From contig NZ_JASZYT010000008.1 of the NCBI RefSeq assembly GCF_030316765.1, positions 248,001-312,000 of the forward strand: 64,000 nucleotides of DNA. Direction: 5' to 3'. Shown piece after piece: positions 18,302 through 26,350 of the stretch (within the stretch, counting starts at the first letter, position 1; every line of letters begins with the position of its first letter). Both the position numbers and the translations under genes were made by a program. Under the pieces are notes generated by a model, which was not told the DNA's origin, ran no database searches, and was given only the letters and a program-made list of their open reading frames with translations. Origin of the DNA: Variovorax saccharolyticus. Its GTDB lineage: Bacteria; Pseudomonadota; Gammaproteobacteria; Burkholderiales; Burkholderiaceae_C.

Positions 18302-19354
18302 CTACAGCTGCCGCCTTGGCCCGCCGCCTGAACCAGGCCGGGACGCACCCATGCCCACTGTGGAGCGCGTCTCCGACGGCCTCTCCCCAAACCGCGCCCG
18401 GTACTGCGCCGCAAAGTGCCCCAGGTGCAGAAACCCGTACTTCTGCGCAACCTCGCGCACACCGCCATCGGAGGCGCCAGCCGCTGCCTGCAGTTCCGCC
18501 CGCACCCGGTCGAGCCTGAGTTCGCGCAGGAACTCCATCGGCCCCTGCCCCGCATGCTGCCGGAAGGCCACTTGCAAGGCCCGCGCGCTGCAGCCGACTT
18601 CGCGGCAGATGTCCGCCAGCGACAGCGGCTGCTCCGCATGCGCCGCCATGTATTCCTGCGCCTTGCGCACCACGCGCGGCAGCAGGCTGCGCTGCGCCTC
18701 GCCGGCCAGCGCGCGCGAATGGTTGTGGCCCGCCGACATCAGCAGGCTCGACATCAGGTATTCCTCGGCATGCTCGCCCAGGCGCCCGCCCGACTGCAGC
18801 GCGTTGCCCGCATCGAGCGTGAGCCGCAGGTAGTCGATGAAGTGCACCAGCGGCGCCAGCGCGGGGTTGTCCAGCGGCACGCCCAGGTCGAACACCAGCT
18901 GCTGCTTCACCGGCGCCTGCAGCAAGGATTCGAGCCGCGAGAGCAGGGCGGACCGGGCCAGCCGCACGATCAGGTGCGGGCTGTCGTCCGACCAGCGCAT
19001 CGACAGCGGCTCGGTCGGCGAAGGCAGCGACGCCAGGCTGGGGGTCGCGTCCACCTGCTGCGCGCCGCAGCGGATCTCGGCCCCGCCGCGCAACGGAATC
19101 TGCAGCAGGAAGAAATCCTGCAGGTAGCCCGGGTCGATCTGCACCCCCGGCCCGTACTGCACGTAATTGAGGCTCACGTCCCGATGCAGCCGCGCACTGT
19201 GATGGCAGGCGTCGAGTTCGGTGCGCGGCCGCAGCATGACCAGCTTGTGCGGGCAGAACACGCGGGCCACGCTCTCGCGCGCCTCGTCCATGTCGTGGCT
19301 CTCGAAGAGTCGGTAGCGCTGCAGCGGCAGCCGTGAAGGGGTGGCGGTTTCCAT
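18302..19354 (-). CDS. AraC family regulator of the monooxygenase cluster
   Basis: This 350-residue regulator has an N-terminal cupin-like sensing domain (AraC_binding_2 type, residues ~20-200) and a C-terminal double helix-turn-helix (~245-330). In the latter, SLADICREVGCSARALQ is the first recognition unit and VAQKYGFLHLGHFAAQYRAR the second, ending in RFGERPS. I use the ATG at 19354, which begins METATPSR; further upstream the open frame enters the divergent promoter region. It is transcribed away from the SDR-monooxygenase operon across 178 bp, the usual position of an AraC activator for that operon. Styrene/indole oxidation clusters often carry such a regulator. Confidence 0.88.
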   Translation of the reverse strand: METATPSRLPLQRYRLFESHDMDEARESVARVFCPHKLVMLRPRTELDACHHSARLHRDVSLNYVQYGPGVQIDPGYLQDFFLLQIPLRGGAEIRCGAQQVDATPSLASLPSPTEPLSMRWSDDSPHLIVRLARSALLSRLESLLQAPVKQQLVFDLGVPLDNPALAPLVHFIDYLRLTLDAGNALQSGGRLGEHAEEYLMSSLLMSAGHNHSRALAGEAQRSLLPRVVRKAQEYMAAHAEQPLSLADICREVGCSARALQVAFRQHAGQGPMEFLRELRLDRVRAELQAAAGASDGGVREVAQKYGFLHLGHFAAQYRARFGERPSETRSTVGMGASRPGSGGGPRRQL

Positions 19355-19532
19355 GGGGCCAGGGCACCGTAGCAAAAACCGTCCCCGCCCACAATTCGGA
19401 CCACCCCTTGGATGAAAGCTGCGCGCCACGGACAGCGCCTGCGTTTGCGGGACTCGCCACCGGCCTCCCTGCAAATAACGTTCGCTCCACAGGCCATCCC
19501 GGCCTGCCGATCAACCCAGGAGAGCAAGCGTC

Positions 19533-20324
19533 ATGTTCAAGGGACTCGCGGGCAAGAGCGCCATCGTCACCGGTGGCTCCACACTGATAGGCGCCGGCGT
19601 GGTGCGTGCACTGCACGCGGCCGGCGTCAAGGTCGTCATCGCCGACATCGATGCCGACAACGGCCAGCCGCTGGCCGATTCGCTCGGCGCCGGCGCACGC
19701 TTCGTGCGCACCGACATCACCGACGACGCCCAGGTGCAGGCCTGCGTGGCGGAGGCGGCGGCACGGCACGGCGGCGTGCACTTCCTGGTCAACCTGGCCT
19801 GTTCCTATGTGGACGACGGCTTCAAGTCGCCGCGCGCCGACTGGCTGACCTCGTTCAACGTCAACGTGGCGAGCGCGGTCGCGATGCTGCAGGCGGTGCA
19901 TCCGCACATGGTCGCGGCGGGCGGCGGGGCGGTGGTCAATTTCACCAGCATCTCGTCGCGCGTGGCGCAGACCGGGCGCTGGCTCTACCCGGTGAGCAAG
20001 GCGGCGATGGCGCAGCTCACCCGCAACATGGCGATGGACCTGGCGCCTGACCGCATCCGCGTCAACAGCGTGTCGCCGGGCTGGACCTGGTCGGCCGTGA
20101 TGGACAAGCTCAGCGGCGGCGACCGCGCCAAGACCGATCGCGTGGCCGCGCCCTTCCATCTGCTCGGGCGCGTCGGCGACCCGAACGAAGTCGCGCAGGT
20201 GGTGCTGTTCCTGTGCTCGGACCACGCCAGCTTCGTGACCGGCTCCGACTACGCGGTGGACGGCGGCTACTCCGCCATGGGCCCCGAGCAGGCCGTGCCC
20301 GCCATTCCCAAGCTGATGGATTGA
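19533..20324 (+). CDS. Short-chain dehydrogenase/reductase, first gene of the indole-type cluster
   Basis: This 263-residue classical SDR has a cofactor motif TGGSTLIGAG at residues 13-22 (a variant of TGxxxGxG). D40 after strand beta-2 suggests NAD preference. The catalytic set is Ser139/Ser141, Tyr152 and Lys156 (YPVSK). The C-terminus GSDYAVDGGYSAMGPEQ is standard. It is the promoter-proximal gene, 20 bp before the StyA-like gene. In indole-degradation clusters an SDR acts on the early hydroxylated indole intermediates, and I infer the same here. A general alcohol dehydrogenase role cannot be excluded. Confidence 0.85.
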   Translation: MFKGLAGKSAIVTGGSTLIGAGVVRALHAAGVKVVIADIDADNGQPLADSLGAGARFVRTDITDDAQVQACVAEAAARHGGVHFLVNLACSYVDDGFKSPRADWLTSFNVNVASAVAMLQAVHPHMVAAGGGAVVNFTSISSRVAQTGRWLYPVSKAAMAQLTRNMAMDLAPDRIRVNSVSPGWTWSAVMDKLSGGDRAKTDRVAAPFHLLGRVGDPNEVAQVVLFLCSDHASFVTGSDYAVDGGYSAMGPEQAVPAIPKLMD

Positions 20325-20344
20325 CCCGATCAAGGAGACACGCA

Positions 20345-21583
20345 ATGAAACGAATCGCCATCGTCGGCGCAGGCCAGTCGGGCCTGCAACTGGGACTGGG
20401 CCTGCTCGCTGCAGGCTACGAGGTCACGATGTACAGCAACCGGACAGGTGAGGACATCCAGCATGGCAAGGTCATGTCGAGCCAGTGCATGTTCGGCGCC
20501 TCGCTGCAGATCGAGCGCGACCTGGGCCTGGACCACTGGGCGAGCGATTGCCCCACGGTCGACGGCATCAGCCTCGCGGTGCCCCATCCCGAGCAGAAGG
20601 GCGCCAAGGCCATCGACTGGGCCGCGCGGCTGAACGCGAGCGCGCAGTCGGTCGACCAGCGCGTCAAGATCCCGGCCTGGATGAGCGAGTTCCAGAAGAA
20701 GGGCGGCGAACTCATCCTGAAGGACGCCGGCATCGACGACCTGGAAGCCTGCACCCGCAGCCACGACCTCACGCTGGTCGCCAGCGGCAAGGGCGAGATC
20801 TCGAAGCTCTTCGAGCGCGACGCCCACAAGTCCACCTACGACAAGCCGCAGCGCGCACTGGCGCTGACCTACGTGAAGGGCATGAAGCCGCGCCAGCCCT
20901 TCTCGGCCGTGTGCTTCAACCTGATCCCCGGCGTGGGCGAGTACTTCGTGTTCCCGGCGCTGACCACCACGGGCCCCTGCGAGATCATGGTGTTCGAAGG
21001 CGTGCCGGGCGGCCCGATGGATTGCTGGGCCGACGTGAAGACGCCGCAGGAGCACTTGGCGCGCAGCAAGTGGATCCTCGACACCTTCACGCCCTGGGAG
21101 GCCGAGCGCTGCCGCGACATCGAGCTGACCGACGACAACGGCATCCTCGCCGGCCGCTTCGCGCCGACCGTGCGCAAGCCGGTGGCGACCTTGCCATCGG
21201 GCCGCAAGGTGCTGGGCCTGGCCGACGTGGTGGTGCTCAACGACCCGATCACGGGCCAGGGCTCCAACAACGCGGCCAAGTGCGCCGACACCTACCTCAA
21301 GAGCATCCTCGCGCGCGGCGAGGGCGCGGCCGATGCGGCGTGGATGCAGCAGACCTTCGACCGCTACTGGTTCGGCTACGCACAGTGGGTCTCGCAGTGG
21401 ACCAACATGCTGCTCGCACCGCCGCCGCCCCACGTGCTCAACCTGCTCGGCAGCGCCGGTGCGATACCGCCGCTGGCCAGCGCCTTCGTCAACGGCTTCG
21501 ACGACCCGCGCACCTTCTTCCCGTGGTTCGCGGACCCGGCCGAGGCGGAGCGCTACATCGCAACCTGCGCCGCCGTCGCTTGA
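20345..21583 (+). CDS. StyA-like flavoprotein monooxygenase (indole monooxygenase type)
   Basis: This is a 412-residue group E FAD-dependent epoxidase. FAD is bound by VGAGQSG at residues 7-13, and GQGSNNA near 302 closes the FAD site. It uses reduced FAD from a separate reductase. Aligned by eye to Pseudomonas StyA, the residues at StyA positions 46, 48 and 96 are Ser, Gln and Ala (SSQCM and SAQSVD), as recalled for indole rather than styrene monooxygenases. Position 76 is Ile instead of the usual Met. AAGGAGACACGCA precedes the ATG. The next gene is a close paralogue carrying its own reductase. Confidence 0.88.
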   Translation: MKRIAIVGAGQSGLQLGLGLLAAGYEVTMYSNRTGEDIQHGKVMSSQCMFGASLQIERDLGLDHWASDCPTVDGISLAVPHPEQKGAKAIDWAARLNASAQSVDQRVKIPAWMSEFQKKGGELILKDAGIDDLEACTRSHDLTLVASGKGEISKLFERDAHKSTYDKPQRALALTYVKGMKPRQPFSAVCFNLIPGVGEYFVFPALTTTGPCEIMVFEGVPGGPMDCWADVKTPQEHLARSKWILDTFTPWEAERCRDIELTDDNGILAGRFAPTVRKPVATLPSGRKVLGLADVVVLNDPITGQGSNNAAKCADTYLKSILARGEGAADAAWMQQTFDRYWFGYAQWVSQWTNMLLAPPPPHVLNLLGSAGAIPPLASAFVNGFDDPRTFFPWFADPAEAERYIATCAAVA

Positions 21584-21597
21584 GCCGGAGCCCGGGC

Positions 21598-23331
21598 ATG
21601 AAGCGACGCGTGGCCATCGTCGGCGCCGGACAGTCCGGCATGCAGCTCGCGCTCGGCCTGCAGCGCGCGGGGCACGAGGTGACGGTCTACTCGAACCGCA
21701 CGGGGCAGGAGATCTTCGATGGCCCGGTGATGTCGAGCCAGTGCATGTTCGAGACCGCGCTGCAGACCGAGCGCGAACTGGCGCTCGACGGGTGGGCCGA
21801 TGAATGCCCCATCGTGGAGGGCATCGGCATGGTGGTGCGCAGCCCCGAGGGCAGCAAGGCCATCGAATGGAGCGCGCGGCTCGACGGCCCTGCGCAGTCG
21901 GTCGACCAGCGGCTCAAGATCCCCGCCTGGATGGCCGAGTTCGAGCAGCGCGGCGGCCGGCTGCTGTTGCAGGACGTGGGGCTGGCCGAGCTCGAAGCCT
22001 GCGCCGCCACGCACGAGCTCGTGGTCGTCGCGAGCGGCAAGGGCGAGATCTCGCAACTGTTCGAGCGCGACGCCGAGCGCTCGCCCTTCGACCAGCCGCA
22101 GCGCGCACTGGCGCACACCTACGTGAAGGGCATGAAGCCCGCCCAGCCGTATTCGCGGGTGTGCTTCAACCTGATCCCCGGCGTGGGCGAGTACTTCGTC
22201 TTCCCGGCGTTGACCACCACGGGGCCGTGCGAGATCATGGTGTTCGAAGGCGTGCCCGGCGGCCCGATGGATTGCTGGGCCGACGTGAAGACCCCGCAGG
22301 AGCACCTGGCGCGCAGCAAGTGGATCCTCGACACCTTCCTGCCCTGGGAAGCCGAGCGCTGCGGCGACATCACGTTGACGGACGACAACGGCATCCTCGT
22401 GGGCCGCTTCGCACCGACGGTGCGCAAGCCCGTGGCGACGCTGCCGTCGGGGCGCAAGGTGCTGGGCCTGGCCGACGCGGTGGTGCTCAACGACCCGATC
22501 ACCGGCCAGGGCTCCAACAACGCGGCCAAGGCCGCCGACATCTACCTGAAGCGGATCCTCGAACACGGCGATGCGGCCTTCGACGCCGCGTGGATGCAGC
22601 AGACCTTCGACCGCTACTGGGAAGGCTATGCCCGCTGGGCCACCGACTGGACCAACAGCCTGCTCGCGCCGCCGAAGCCGCATGTGCAGAAGCTGCTGCA
22701 GAGCGCCACCCACATGCCCGCTGTCGCGAGCACCCTCGTGAACGGTTTCGACGACCCGCGCGTCTTCGCGCCCTGGTGGTTCGATGCCGTCGAGGCCGAC
22801 CGCTTCCTGGAGGCGAGGGCGCGCGAGGCGGCGGCCGACCGTTTCGACCGGCGCGACTTCCGCAAGGCGCTCGGCCAGTTCACCACCGGCGTGACCGTCA
22901 TCACGACCCGCGGCATCGACGGCCGCCGCGTCGGCATGACCGCCAACTCGTTCTCGTCGGTCTCGCTCGACCCGCCGCTGGTGCTCTGGAGCCTGGCGCG
23001 GCAGGCGCCGAGCGTGGCCGACTTCACCGGCGCCAGTCATTTCGCGATCAACGTGCTGGCGGCGCACCAGCATCACCTGTCGCGCCAGTTCTCGACGCCC
23101 CAGCCGGACAAGTTCGGCGGCGTCGACTGCTGCGACGGCACGGCCGGCGTGCCGCTGCTGAATGGCGTCATCGCCCGCTTCATCTGCCGCAACGTGAGGC
23201 AATATGACGGCGGCGACCACCTCATCTTCATCGGCGAGGTCGAGCGCTACGACCGCTTCGACGGCGAGCCGCTGGTCTTTCACTCGGGCTACTACCAGGT
23301 GACGACACGACATCCGGAATGCGTGCAATGA
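21598..23331 (+). CDS. StyA2B-type fusion: indole/styrene monooxygenase plus flavin reductase
   Basis: This is a 577-residue self-sufficient two-domain enzyme. Residues 1-~412 are a second StyA-like epoxidase, highly similar to the upstream paralogue, with long identical blocks such as EIMVFEGVPGGPMDCWADVK. Residues ~415-577 form a flavin reductase of the HpaC/StyB class (FRKALGQFTTGVTVITT, then GMTANSFSSVSLDPPLV and a FHSGYYQV end). The frame is continuous through the junction EARAREAAADRFDRRD, so this is a true fusion. Such StyA1/StyA2B pairs are known from Rhodococcus opacus 1CP. The reductase probably supplies FADH2 to both epoxidases. The ATG at 21598 lies 14 bp after the preceding stop. 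Confidence 0.92.
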   Translation: MKRRVAIVGAGQSGMQLALGLQRAGHEVTVYSNRTGQEIFDGPVMSSQCMFETALQTERELALDGWADECPIVEGIGMVVRSPEGSKAIEWSARLDGPAQSVDQRLKIPAWMAEFEQRGGRLLLQDVGLAELEACAATHELVVVASGKGEISQLFERDAERSPFDQPQRALAHTYVKGMKPAQPYSRVCFNLIPGVGEYFVFPALTTTGPCEIMVFEGVPGGPMDCWADVKTPQEHLARSKWILDTFLPWEAERCGDITLTDDNGILVGRFAPTVRKPVATLPSGRKVLGLADAVVLNDPITGQGSNNAAKAADIYLKRILEHGDAAFDAAWMQQTFDRYWEGYARWATDWTNSLLAPPKPHVQKLLQSATHMPAVASTLVNGFDDPRVFAPWWFDAVEADRFLEARAREAAADRFDRRDFRKALGQFTTGVTVITTRGIDGRRVGMTANSFSSVSLDPPLVLWSLARQAPSVADFTGASHFAINVLAAHQHHLSRQFSTPQPDKFGGVDCCDGTAGVPLLNGVIARFICRNVRQYDGGDHLIFIGEVERYDRFDGEPLVFHSGYYQVTTRHPECVQ

Positions 23332-23377
23332 GCGCGCGGCCCGCACACCCACCCCACCCTTGAACGGAGCACATCAC

Positions 23378-24616
23378 ATGCAGGACACAGCAGCCACCCA
23401 CTCCCCGCGCCACATCCGCATCCAGGCCAGCGACGGCAGCGGAAGCTTCAACGGCTACCTGGCCGTGCCGAGTTCGGGCAGCGGACCCGGCCTGGTGCTG
23501 GCGCAGGAGATCTTCGGCGTGAACCAGACGATGCGCGAGGTGGCCGACTACTACGCCGAAGAAGGCTATGTGGTGCTGGTGCCCGACTTGTTCTGGCGCC
23601 AGCAGCCCGATGTCGAGCTCGGCTATTCGCCGGACGACTGGCAGCGTGCCTTTGCCCTCTACAAGGGCTTCGACGAGGCCCGCGGCATGGAAGACATGCA
23701 GGCCGCGATCACCGCGCTGCGCGGGCGGCCCGAAGTGCAGGGCGCAAAGGTCGGCGTGCTCGGCTTCTGCCTGGGCGGCAAGCTGGCCTACCTGGCGGCC
23801 TGCCGCACCGATGCGGACGTGGCGGTGGGCTACTACGGCGTGGGCATCGACGCGGCGCTCGACGAGGCCGACCGCATCCGCTGCCGGCTCGCCCTGCACG
23901 TGGCCGAGCTCGACGGCTTCTGCCCGCCCGAGGCCCGCGAGCGCATCGTGGGTGCGCTGCGCGGCCGGCCGAACGTCGAGGTGCATGTGTACCCCGGGGT
24001 CGACCATGCGTTTGCGCGGGTGGGCGGCGAGCACTACCACCGGGCCTCGGCGCTGATGGCGCACGAACGCAGCATCGCGGCGCTGAAGAGCGCCATCGGC
24101 CCGCGCTACGACCTGGCGGCGCTGTGGGACAAGCACTGCGAGTACGAGTTCGCGACCCGCAATGTCGACGACACGATGAGCACCATGGTGGCCGAGCCCT
24201 ACGTCAACCACATCCCGACCATGACCGGCGGCGTGGGCTATAAGGCGCTGCACCATTTCTACACGAATCACTTCGTCAACAGCAACCCGCCCGATACCTC
24301 GCTGGTGCCGATCTCGCGTACCGTGGGCGCGTCGCAGGTGGTCGACGAGATGCTGTTCAGCTTCACGCACACGACCGAGATCCCGTGGATGCTGCCGGGC
24401 GTGGCGCCGACGGGCCGGCGGGTCGAGATCCCGCTGCTGGCGGTGGTCAAGTTCCGCGGCGACAAGCTCTATCACGAGCACATCTACTGGGACCAGGCGA
24501 GCGTGCTGGTGCAGGTGGGGTTGCTGGGTGCGGCGGGCTTGCCGGTGGCGGGGGTGGAGACAGCGCGGAAGCTGCTCGACGAGACGTTGCCGTCGAATAC
24601 CTTGATGGGTTCCTGA
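23378..24616 (+). CDS. Dienelactone hydrolase-SnoaL domain fusion
   Basis: This 412-residue protein has an N-terminal dienelactone hydrolase domain (residues ~10-235) with a full triad: Cys131 in GFCLGGK, Asp179 in AELDGF and His210 in GVDHAF. The second half (~245-400) is a SnoaL/NTF2-like domain. GGAG lies nine bases before the ATG; an in-frame TTG at 23360 is less likely. It is the last gene of the monooxygenase operon. In known indole pathways a third enzyme converts 3-hydroxyindolin-2-one to anthranilate, and this protein is the candidate for that step by position only. It could instead open a lactone or lactam. Confidence 0.8.
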   Translation: MQDTAATHSPRHIRIQASDGSGSFNGYLAVPSSGSGPGLVLAQEIFGVNQTMREVADYYAEEGYVVLVPDLFWRQQPDVELGYSPDDWQRAFALYKGFDEARGMEDMQAAITALRGRPEVQGAKVGVLGFCLGGKLAYLAACRTDADVAVGYYGVGIDAALDEADRIRCRLALHVAELDGFCPPEARERIVGALRGRPNVEVHVYPGVDHAFARVGGEHYHRASALMAHERSIAALKSAIGPRYDLAALWDKHCEYEFATRNVDDTMSTMVAEPYVNHIPTMTGGVGYKALHHFYTNHFVNSNPPDTSLVPISRTVGASQVVDEMLFSFTHTTEIPWMLPGVAPTGRRVEIPLLAVVKFRGDKLYHEHIYWDQASVLVQVGLLGAAGLPVAGVETARKLLDETLPSNTLMGS

Positions 24617-24749: not shown

Positions 24750-25031
24750 ATGAACAGCTTGCCTGACCTTGGCCGGGCGCTCGCGCGCTTGCGCAAGGAG
24801 CGCGGCCTGACCCAGAAGGAACTGGCTGCCGCCTGCGGCATGGGCCAGTCCACGCTCGCGCGCTTCGAGACGGGCGGCGTTGCCGAGTTCGGCTCGCGCA
24901 AGCTGCTGCGCCTGTTGGAGGTTCTGGGCCACGAAATGAGCTACGTGCCGGTGAATCGCAGCTTCACGCTCGACGACGCGCTGGCCGAGCGGCAGCGCGA
25001 GTTCGCCGGCGACATCGACGCGCACCGATGA
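24750..25031 (+). CDS. hipB: HipB-like antitoxin (XRE family helix-turn-helix)
   Basis: This 93-residue protein has a Cro/C1-type HTH at residues ~8-65 (LRKERGLTQKELAAACGMGQ and ARFETGG). Its partner is a HipA-type kinase toxin whose ATG overlaps this stop (ATGA at 25028-25031). In HipBA systems HipB represses the operon and holds HipA inactive on DNA. The AT-rich gap upstream contains two palindromes that could be operators. The ATG at 24750 lacks a clear ribosome-binding site, which would keep translation low. Confidence 0.85.
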   Translation: MNSLPDLGRALARLRKERGLTQKELAAACGMGQSTLARFETGGVAEFGSRKLLRLLEVLGHEMSYVPVNRSFTLDDALAERQREFAGDIDAHR

Positions 25032-26350
25032 AGCTGCACGTCTTCGTCCACGACAAGCCGGTCGCGACCCTGGAGTCCGCTGATGGCTTCCGCCACGTGA
25101 TGGCCTATCACCCGGACGTCGAGCCCGAGCAGTTCGTCTCGCTGCTGATGCCCGTGCGCACCGAGTCCTACGCCTACCCCGACCTGCACCCCGTCTTCCG
25201 CATGAACCTGCCGGAAGGTTTCCTGCTGTCGATCCTTCAGGAGCAGCTGGGGCCGCAGGTCGGTGCATCGCCGCTCAACCTGCTGTCGGTGGTGGGGCGC
25301 AACGCCATCGGGCGTGTCAAGGTCGCGATGCCCGGCGCAGACCCGACGCAGCCGCCCGTGCCCTTCGAGCTGGCGGGCATCCTGCGGGGCGACAACTCCG
25401 AGGCGGCTTTCGTCGACCTGGTCCGCCGCTACGCCGTGTCGGGCGTGTCTGGCGTCGTCCCCAAGTTCCTCTCGCCCAACACCCTCGCGGAACGCGGCAA
25501 GGCAACGCTGGCGACCGACCGGCACATCGTCAAGGGCACGACCTCGCGGCTCCCCGGCGTCGCGCTCAACGAGCACCTCTGCATGGAGGTGTCGCGCCAG
25601 GCCGGCATACCCACCGCGAAGACCGAGGTCTCCGATGACGGCCAGGCCCTGGTGGTGCATCGCTTCGACGTCGAGGACGACGGCGTCACGCGCAAGGGCA
25701 TGGAAGACATCTGCAGCCTGCTGTCGCTGCGGCCCGAAGAAAAATACCAGTCGACCTGGGAGCGCGTGGTCGGCCGCATCAAGGACGTGGTGCCGGTTGC
25801 CGCGCAGCAGAACGCGGCGCTGTCGCAGCTGGCCGACCTGCTGCTGCTGACCTACGCGCTGCGCAACGCCGACTGCCACACCAAGAACATCGCGCTGCTC
25901 TACAGCTCGCGCGAGCACATCGCCCTGGCCCCCGTCTACGACATGCTGACCATCTCGGTCTACGAAGACTATGCGAAGAACCCGCCCGGCATGCCCGTCG
26001 ATGGGCGCAGCAGCTGGATGCCGGGAAAGGCGTTGGAGCGCTTTCTGCAGACGCGCTGCGGCGTGATGCCCGCGCAGACCCGGGAGCGCGTGGAGCGCAT
26101 CTGCGAGGCGATCGTCCAGGTGACGCCGCAGGTGGTCGAAGCGGCCGGCCGCTACCCCGGGTTTCGCGAGACCGGCGCGCGGATGCTGCAGGCGTGGAAT
26201 GCCGGGATGAACAGCCTGCGGCTGCAAAAGAGCTGGAGCCTGCCGTCGCTCGACGCTGCCATCGAGCAGGCGGGTTGGACGGATGTGCGGCCGGCGGTGC
26301 CGACATCGCGGGAGAAGATCGGCAGGTCGCCCTTGCTGGGAAGGCGCTGA
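25028..26350 (+). CDS. hipA: HipA-like serine/threonine kinase toxin
   Basis: This is a 440-residue HipA-family kinase, the full length of the E. coli type. It has the N-terminal beta-barrel subdomain (FRMNLPEGFLL), then the kinase fold. The catalytic loop NADCHTKN gives Asp282 and Asn287. The metal-binding Asp in APVYDML is residue 305. A KFLSPN/HIVKG region stands where HipA binds ATP. HipA of E. coli phosphorylates glutamyl-tRNA synthetase and produces growth arrest and persistence; the target here is unknown. All catalytic positions look intact, so the toxin is probably active. Confidence 0.9.
   Translation: MKLHVFVHDKPVATLESADGFRHVMAYHPDVEPEQFVSLLMPVRTESYAYPDLHPVFRMNLPEGFLLSILQEQLGPQVGASPLNLLSVVGRNAIGRVKVAMPGADPTQPPVPFELAGILRGDNSEAAFVDLVRRYAVSGVSGVVPKFLSPNTLAERGKATLATDRHIVKGTTSRLPGVALNEHLCMEVSRQAGIPTAKTEVSDDGQALVVHRFDVEDDGVTRKGMEDICSLLSLRPEEKYQSTWERVVGRIKDVVPVAAQQNAALSQLADLLLLTYALRNADCHTKNIALLYSSREHIALAPVYDMLTISVYEDYAKNPPGMPVDGRSSWMPGKALERFLQTRCGVMPAQTRERVERICEAIVQVTPQVVEAAGRYPGFRETGARMLQAWNAGMNSLRLQKSWSLPSLDAAIEQAGWTDVRPAVPTSREKIGRSPLLGRR

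Follow-up and report, generated by a model that had tools for sequence, protein, structure and literature searches.

Paired oxygenases made up of a free A1 and of A2B, in which a second oxygenase is fused to a flavin reductase, were described in 2018 as VpStyA1/VpStyA2B of Variovorax paradoxus EPS (PMC6017014), and a review of the same year renamed these systems IndA1/IndA2B and pointed out their short-chain dehydrogenase (SDR) and dienelactone hydrolase (DLH) neighbours (PMC6165268). The EPS A2B acts mainly as an NADH-dependent FAD reductase (kcat 22.3 per s), Escherichia coli clones of A1 and of A2B produce indigo, and the two enzymes oxidise benzyl methyl sulfide with activities of 3.1 and 1.6 U per mg and epoxidise styrene slowly (PMC6017014). 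The text of that paper puts sulfide turnover at 25-26 times that of styrene, while the figures in its abstract imply about 7 and 12 times. A second pair, IndA1/IndA2B of Rhodococcus opacus 1CP, is reported to take part in indole degradation (PMC13101518); the A2B proteins of 1CP and EPS are 57% identical and the 1CP activity is reported as lower (PMC6017014). Here, we analysed a cluster with the same free oxygenase and oxygenase-reductase fusion in a 64,000-nucleotide stretch (the window) of Variovorax saccharolyticus, contig NZ_JASZYT010000008.1, positions 248,001 to 312,000.

The second point of reference is the Acinetobacter iifABCDE/iifR system, in which IifC/D oxidise indole, IifB yields 3-hydroxyindolin-2-one and IifA, a cofactor-independent oxygenase, yields anthranilate, the role of iifE being called unclear (PMC6221969). 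The first product, indole-2,3-epoxide, is unstable, and IifA is a two-domain protein with a C-terminal SnoaL fold (PMC7225977). Expression of iifA-D rises with indole and an iifR mutant lacks visible IifC (PMC4577076).

Oxygenase class and the proposed indole pathway

The best-supported assignment of the window cluster is to an already known system, the IndA1/IndA2B version of the iif/ind cluster for indole. All five genes described by an earlier sequence-only reading were recovered with agreeing Pfam families, namely genes for an SDR, a StyA-like oxygenase, a StyA-reductase fusion and a DLH-SnoaL protein, with a gene for an AraC-family regulator diverging from them (Table 1). That reading had also called the sharing of one fused reductase by two epoxidases an unusual enzyme division, a novelty that falls away because V. 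paradoxus EPS and R. opacus 1CP have already been described as having it (PMC6017014, PMC6165268). As the finding takes its place in a characterised system, no new pathway need be claimed.

Both oxygenase domains were aligned by MAFFT with StyA of PDB entry 3ihm. At StyA positions 46, 48, 50, 73, 76 and 96, A1 and A2 both read S-Q-M-V-I-A where StyA has N-V-H-Y-H-S, so that both carry the full published indole monooxygenase (IMO) fingerprint, S46-Q48-M50-V/I73-I76-A96 (PMC13101512, 2026), and neither carries the StyA fingerprint N46-V48-H50-Y73-H76-S96. This bears out the earlier recognition of an indole-monooxygenase pattern in Ser46, Gln48 and Ala96; the isoleucine seen at position 76 was also correct, but it is no departure from a methionine pattern, since I76 belongs to the published fingerprint. 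After the removal of seven broken, partial or distant rows, the full fingerprint was present in 88 of the 101 rows aligned, the window's two included. Against the NCBIfam StyA model, A1 and A2 score 216.4 and 212 bits, below the cut-off of 550. SDR and DLH genes adjoin the oxygenases, as in clusters of indole monooxygenases (group E, the former E2 type), and the free A1 beside an A2 fused in-frame to a flavin reductase places the cluster in the IndA1/IndA2B subtype. At an E-value of 0.001, the genome search matched A1 and A2 alone and returned no third StyA-like gene.

A1 is identical to the crystallised chain of PDB entry 7z4x at 388 of 412 positions (24 mismatches), and we take this entry and its kin to be VpIndA1 of V. 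paradoxus EPS. The nearest named record is from Variovorax ginsengisoli CGMCC 1.12090 (A1 99%, A2 half 98%, B 100%). V. paradoxus EPS is a different Variovorax strain from that of the window, but the two share the A1 plus A2B arrangement, an A1-A2 identity of 74% and an ARE-type linker in the fusion. A further PDB entry, 9lrq, is named 'Alanine-phosphoribitol ligase' yet matches A1 over 405 residues at 578 bits, and is apparently a mislabelled indole monooxygenase.

The L-numbers below label loci of other genomes; a search of the genome collection, capped at 80 matches, gave 69 loci. The window's four enzyme parts have counterparts in the iif locus of Acinetobacter baumannii (L178), to which the oxygenase is 62%, the reductase 57%, the IifB-type SDR 59% and the two-domain IifA-type DLH-SnoaL protein 61% identical; an AraC-family gene belongs to the window cluster and to the iif system of Acinetobacter. 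The Acinetobacter system differs in having one oxygenase, a free reductase and the order A-B-C-D, as against SDR-A1-A2B-DLH here. All 17 aligned rows of the DLH-SnoaL protein retain C131, D179 and H210. In the same protein, 87 of 164 positions are invariant in the SnoaL half and 67 of 228 in the DLH half, which hints, but no more, that the SnoaL half matters for the unusual chemistry; two Variovorax loci that carry the DLH half alone (L022 and L024) speak against this hint. The predicted structure (mean predicted local distance difference test score 71.8) models the DLH half well but the SnoaL half poorly, and the 50 Foldseek matches listed are DLH-like and other alpha/beta hydrolases; the SnoaL assignment therefore rests on Pfam and on PMC7225977. 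Elsewhere in the same genome, AntA and AntB of anthranilate dioxygenase score above their cut-offs, and the gene preceding them scores above the BenC but below the AntC cut-off.

Together, the fingerprint, the iif homology and the presence of AntAB in the genome support the earlier proposal of indole as substrate and of a complete upper pathway, and we put the probability that this is an operon of the iif/ind type, serving to break down or detoxify indole, at roughly 0.85. The best reading is that the gene set very probably converts indole to anthranilate. By analogy with the NADH-dependent flavin reduction published for the EPS A2B, the B domain would reduce FAD with NADH and supply both A1, the probable main oxygenase, and its own A2. 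A1 and A2, for whose EPS orthologues oxygenation and indigo formation are in print, would epoxidise indole at C2-C3, and the epoxide would hydrolyse to the 2,3-diol. The SDR may then oxidise the diol to 3-hydroxyindolin-2-one, averting indigo, and the DLH-SnoaL protein may add oxygen without a cofactor and open the ring to give anthranilate, steps that have a published precedent in the roles of IifB and IifA in Acinetobacter. Anthranilate would presumably be taken up by the anthranilate 1,2-dioxygenase encoded elsewhere and converted to catechol. Given the need for IifR in Acinetobacter, the AraC protein is a likely indole-responsive activator, and a conserved block in the AraC-SDR intergenic region is its candidate operator; that block was read from an alignment of 34 intergenic regions.

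Several observations weigh against this reading. The AraC protein scores 187 bits against NCBIfam AndR, a regulator of anthranilate dioxygenase with a cut-off of 350, and has no match above 40% in the A. baumannii locus. Beside the operon no iifE-like gene for an outer-membrane protein of the MetA-pathway type was recognised, the rest of the genome not having been searched for one, and the gene order, with DLH last, is unlike that of Acinetobacter. The EPS enzymes turn over benzyl methyl sulfide more rapidly than styrene (PMC6017014), and in L022 and L024, where the DLH protein lacks SnoaL, the last step may differ.

Two other substrate classes have to be weighed against indole. The natural substrate could be some other indole compound (skatole, a halo-indole or a plant indole) or a heteroaromatic related to indole, with indole itself as a side substrate, as might be expected from the reported promiscuity of group E monooxygenases (PMC6017014, PMC6165268) and from the placement of skatole monooxygenases as a sister branch within the same group (PMC13101512). 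According to the latter paper, however, skatole monooxygenases lack the IMO fingerprint, which both window domains bear, and an IMO-type enzyme of Acinetobacter piscicola is reported to have oxidised only indole. A skatole role was lowered on this fingerprint, and another indole or heteroaromatic as the natural substrate is improbable. More improbable still, and by a clear step, is a system for styrene degradation or sulfide oxidation. The slow styrene epoxidation and the sulfide rates of the EPS orthologues would fit it, but the StyA fingerprint is absent and the StyA model scores fall far below the cut-off, points on which a styrene role was lowered; Pfam also places none of the five operon genes in the styrene oxide isomerase or aldehyde dehydrogenase families, the rest of the genome not having been searched, and the R. 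opacus 1CP pair is reported not to be induced by styrene (PMC13101518). The sequence-only reading had named a strong preference for an unrelated aryl alkene or sulfide as a sign against indole. The EPS orthologues do prefer benzyl methyl sulfide to styrene, yet they form indigo from indole too, so this sign is present only in part.

Conservation of the cluster in other genomes

Gene order was counted in the 30 listed loci in which an intact A2B of the Variovorax type comes after A1. An SDR match precedes A1 in all 30 (one cut by the contig start), a divergent AraC gene is present in 27, one of the exceptions being a contig that starts inside the SDR, and a DLH-SnoaL gene follows A2B in 26 (two cut by the contig end). 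The remaining four are L022 and L024, L004, which ends before the place is reached, and L035, where no DLH-SnoaL match was found within 7 kb. This gene order is kept well beyond chance. L022 and L024 come from Variovorax sp. dw_308 and J22R133 and have A1/A2B clusters with a DLH protein lacking the SnoaL half; no AraC match, and no separate SnoaL match, was found in either locus.

An intact A2B, meaning uninterrupted and practically full-length, occurs in 42 of the 101 genomes of the genus-group search, the window's own genome counted. A 2017 search is reported to have found fused genes only in Actinobacteria and Variovorax (PMC6017014). Outside Variovorax, the fused A2B loci listed here are those of Nocardioides immobilis (L029) and of three Acidobacteria metagenome-assembled genomes (MAGs; L026, L028, L031), in which A1 lies on the opposite strand from A2B.

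Some clusters look damaged or diverge in their surroundings. The locus of Variovorax sp. Root411 (L030) has a partial A1 and a split A2, and genome G039 holds broken pieces of an A1/A2B cluster. Within some kb of clusters lacking DLH-SnoaL, there is sometimes an amine-oxidase-like flavoprotein (L028, L049, L051-L054, L058, L063, L179) or a PF04199 cyclase (L042, L057, L179); either is a possible other route onward from oxidised indole, the pattern being partial.

Likeness of A1 and A2 and a proposed loss of A2

A1 and A2 share 302 of 410 residues (74%), and this identity is uneven, reaching 91% at residues 163-318 and 64% elsewhere. Orthologues, too, are more alike in the middle than at the ends (69% against 56% for A1 and A. 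baumannii IifC), so that protein identity alone proves nothing about gene conversion. Agreement at 4-fold degenerate sites was compared between A1 and A2 of the same genome and after 5000 shuffles of partners among genomes, using 31 clusters of the Variovorax type, the window's included. In the middle, the genome's own pair agrees at 0.789 of these sites, compared to a shuffled mean of 0.728 (standard deviation 0.007) that reached the observed value in 0 of 5000 shuffles, statistics to be read with the limits that related genomes are not independent and that near-repeats may have been merged in those assemblies that are MAGs or built from short reads. A1 genes of different genomes agree with one another at 0.740 in this part. 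The N-terminal part gave 0.583 for own pairs and 0.573 for shuffled ones (292 of 5000), and the C-terminal part 0.587 and 0.593 (3884 of 5000). Sliding windows place the edges of the tract near residues 150 and 330, a segment that comprises the substrate-binding domain plus the stretch behind it, and in one cluster (L012) A1 and A2 share an identical run of 179 nucleotides. The pattern looks like what segmental gene conversion within genomes leaves at residues ~150-330 of A1 and A2.

A second group of clusters has a single oxygenase gene. These are found in Delftia acidovorans and D. tsuruhatensis (L043, L060), 'Xenophilus' sp. L33 (L061) and Variovorax sp. J22G73 (L037), and they share the window's arrangement of AraC, SDR, A and B, with an A that is 80-90% identical to the window's A1. 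They differ in lacking the A2 half and having a free reductase, and L061 has no DLH match within 7 kb. Their A nests among the A1 sequences, at a position above the point where two A2B-bearing strains split off (support 99/97), and their B nests within the fused-B clade (99/97). The simplest reading would be a loss of A2 in Delftia and the two relatives that left the reductase as a free protein.

Each of these two readings has a competitor. If the middle of A1 and A2 were merely more conserved than the ends, with no conversion, the higher orthologue identity of the middle would follow, and blended near-repeats in short-read assemblies could add to the effect; the excess at 4-fold sites is nevertheless tied to the genome and has no comparable counterpart in the ends, and the 179-nucleotide run of L012 also speaks for conversion, so that conservation without conversion is unlikely. 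For the single-A clusters, the competing history takes a single A with a free B as ancestral in Delftia, L33 and J22G73, with A2B gained elsewhere by transfer or fusion. The reductase tree on its own leaves room for this, as a clade of fused Variovorax reductases is not rejected there (approximately unbiased (AU) test, p 0.158). In the A1 tree, by contrast, the A1/A2B genomes as one group are rejected (AU p 0.014), a group that was named after an earlier tree had been seen, and both A and B of the single-A clusters lie inside the clades of their A2B-bearing relatives. An ancestral single A is thus a tentative alternative, doubtful but less so than the absence of conversion. Taken jointly, we lean towards continuing conversion confined to residues ~150-330, which would keep A1 and A2 alike in this part while their ends diverge, and towards a fusion that is reversible, A2 having been lost in Delftia, L33 and J22G73.

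If this joint reading is true, a common substrate pocket is held in both a free and a reductase-tethered copy of the oxygenase, and the 74% likeness of A1 and A2, which the literature has read as hinting at a convergent origin, is largely an effect of conversion. This would be a modest evolutionary extra on a known system that may help the study and engineering of group E monooxygenases, for which the natural A1/A2 mosaics and the fusion splits in relatives offer ready-made controls for the worth of the fusion and of the second oxygenase. A narrow literature search found no earlier report of A1/A2 conversion or A2 loss, which is weak evidence of absence.

The trees are less decisive on where A2B arose. 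Nocardioides L029, Streptomyces L175 and Nocardioidaceae genomes served as stand-ins for the R. opacus 1CP sequences. An origin of A1 and A2 by duplication inside Variovorax alone is doubtful: without the middle segment the two separate and A2 joins actinobacterial A2 (SH-aLRT 93 in a quick tree), but a tree that keeps Variovorax A1 and A2 in one group is not rejected (AU p 0.294). The reductase domains of the A2B type form a weakly supported group (88/56), and neither holding all fused A2 domains together (p 0.507) nor grouping the Variovorax and Acidobacteria reductases with unfused iifD-type ones (p 0.457) is rejected. In L116 (genome G165 of the same family), an A-B fusion has a reductase that groups with unfused reductases of other relatives, pointing to a separate fusion event. 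The start of B in L061 was also considered as a trace of A2 loss, matching the window's A2 start at 15 of 20 bases (ATG included), and was dropped, since the A2 starts of the 31 clusters score 8-16 against it and the likeness is thus no better than chance among these clusters; the odds of the joint reading were reduced slightly on this account.

Features and neighbouring genes

The features are collected in Table 1. The AraC frame stays open farther 5', from a TTG.

Table 1 Features of the cluster, in window coordinates
Feature	Position	Strand	Remarks
AraC-family regulator, 350 aa from ATG	18302..19354	-	Pfam AraC_binding_2 and HTH_18; IifR-like by place
Candidate operator, conserved block in AraC-SDR intergenic region	19419..19452	none	TGCG twice, 20 bp apart
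Short-chain dehydrogenase (SDR), IifB-like, 263 aa	19533..20324	+	Pfam adh_short_C2
A1, indole monooxygenase IndA1/StyA1, 412 aa	20345..21583	+	Pfam Smoa_sbd; PDB 7z4x match; SQMVIA fingerprint
Putative gene-conversion tract, A1 middle (~residues 151-331)	20795..21337	+	Edges approximate
A2B, fusion of indole monooxygenase A2 and NADH:flavin reductase B, 577 aa	21598..23331	+	One open frame; Smoa_sbd; SQMVIA
Putative gene-conversion tract, A2 middle (~residues 150-330)	22045..22587	+	Edges approximate
Flavin reductase domain B of A2B	22825..23328	+	Pfam Flavin_Reduct, A2B residues 426-567
DLH-SnoaL two-domain protein, IifA-like, probable cofactor-independent oxygenase, 412 aa	23378..24616	+	Pfam DLH and SnoaL_2

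Directly 3' of the operon lies a small open reading frame resembling a helix-turn-helix protein (24750-25031, by eye), followed by a gene for a HipA-type kinase (25028-26350; Pfam HipA_C and Couple_hipA). The two are likely a HipBA toxin-antitoxin pair.

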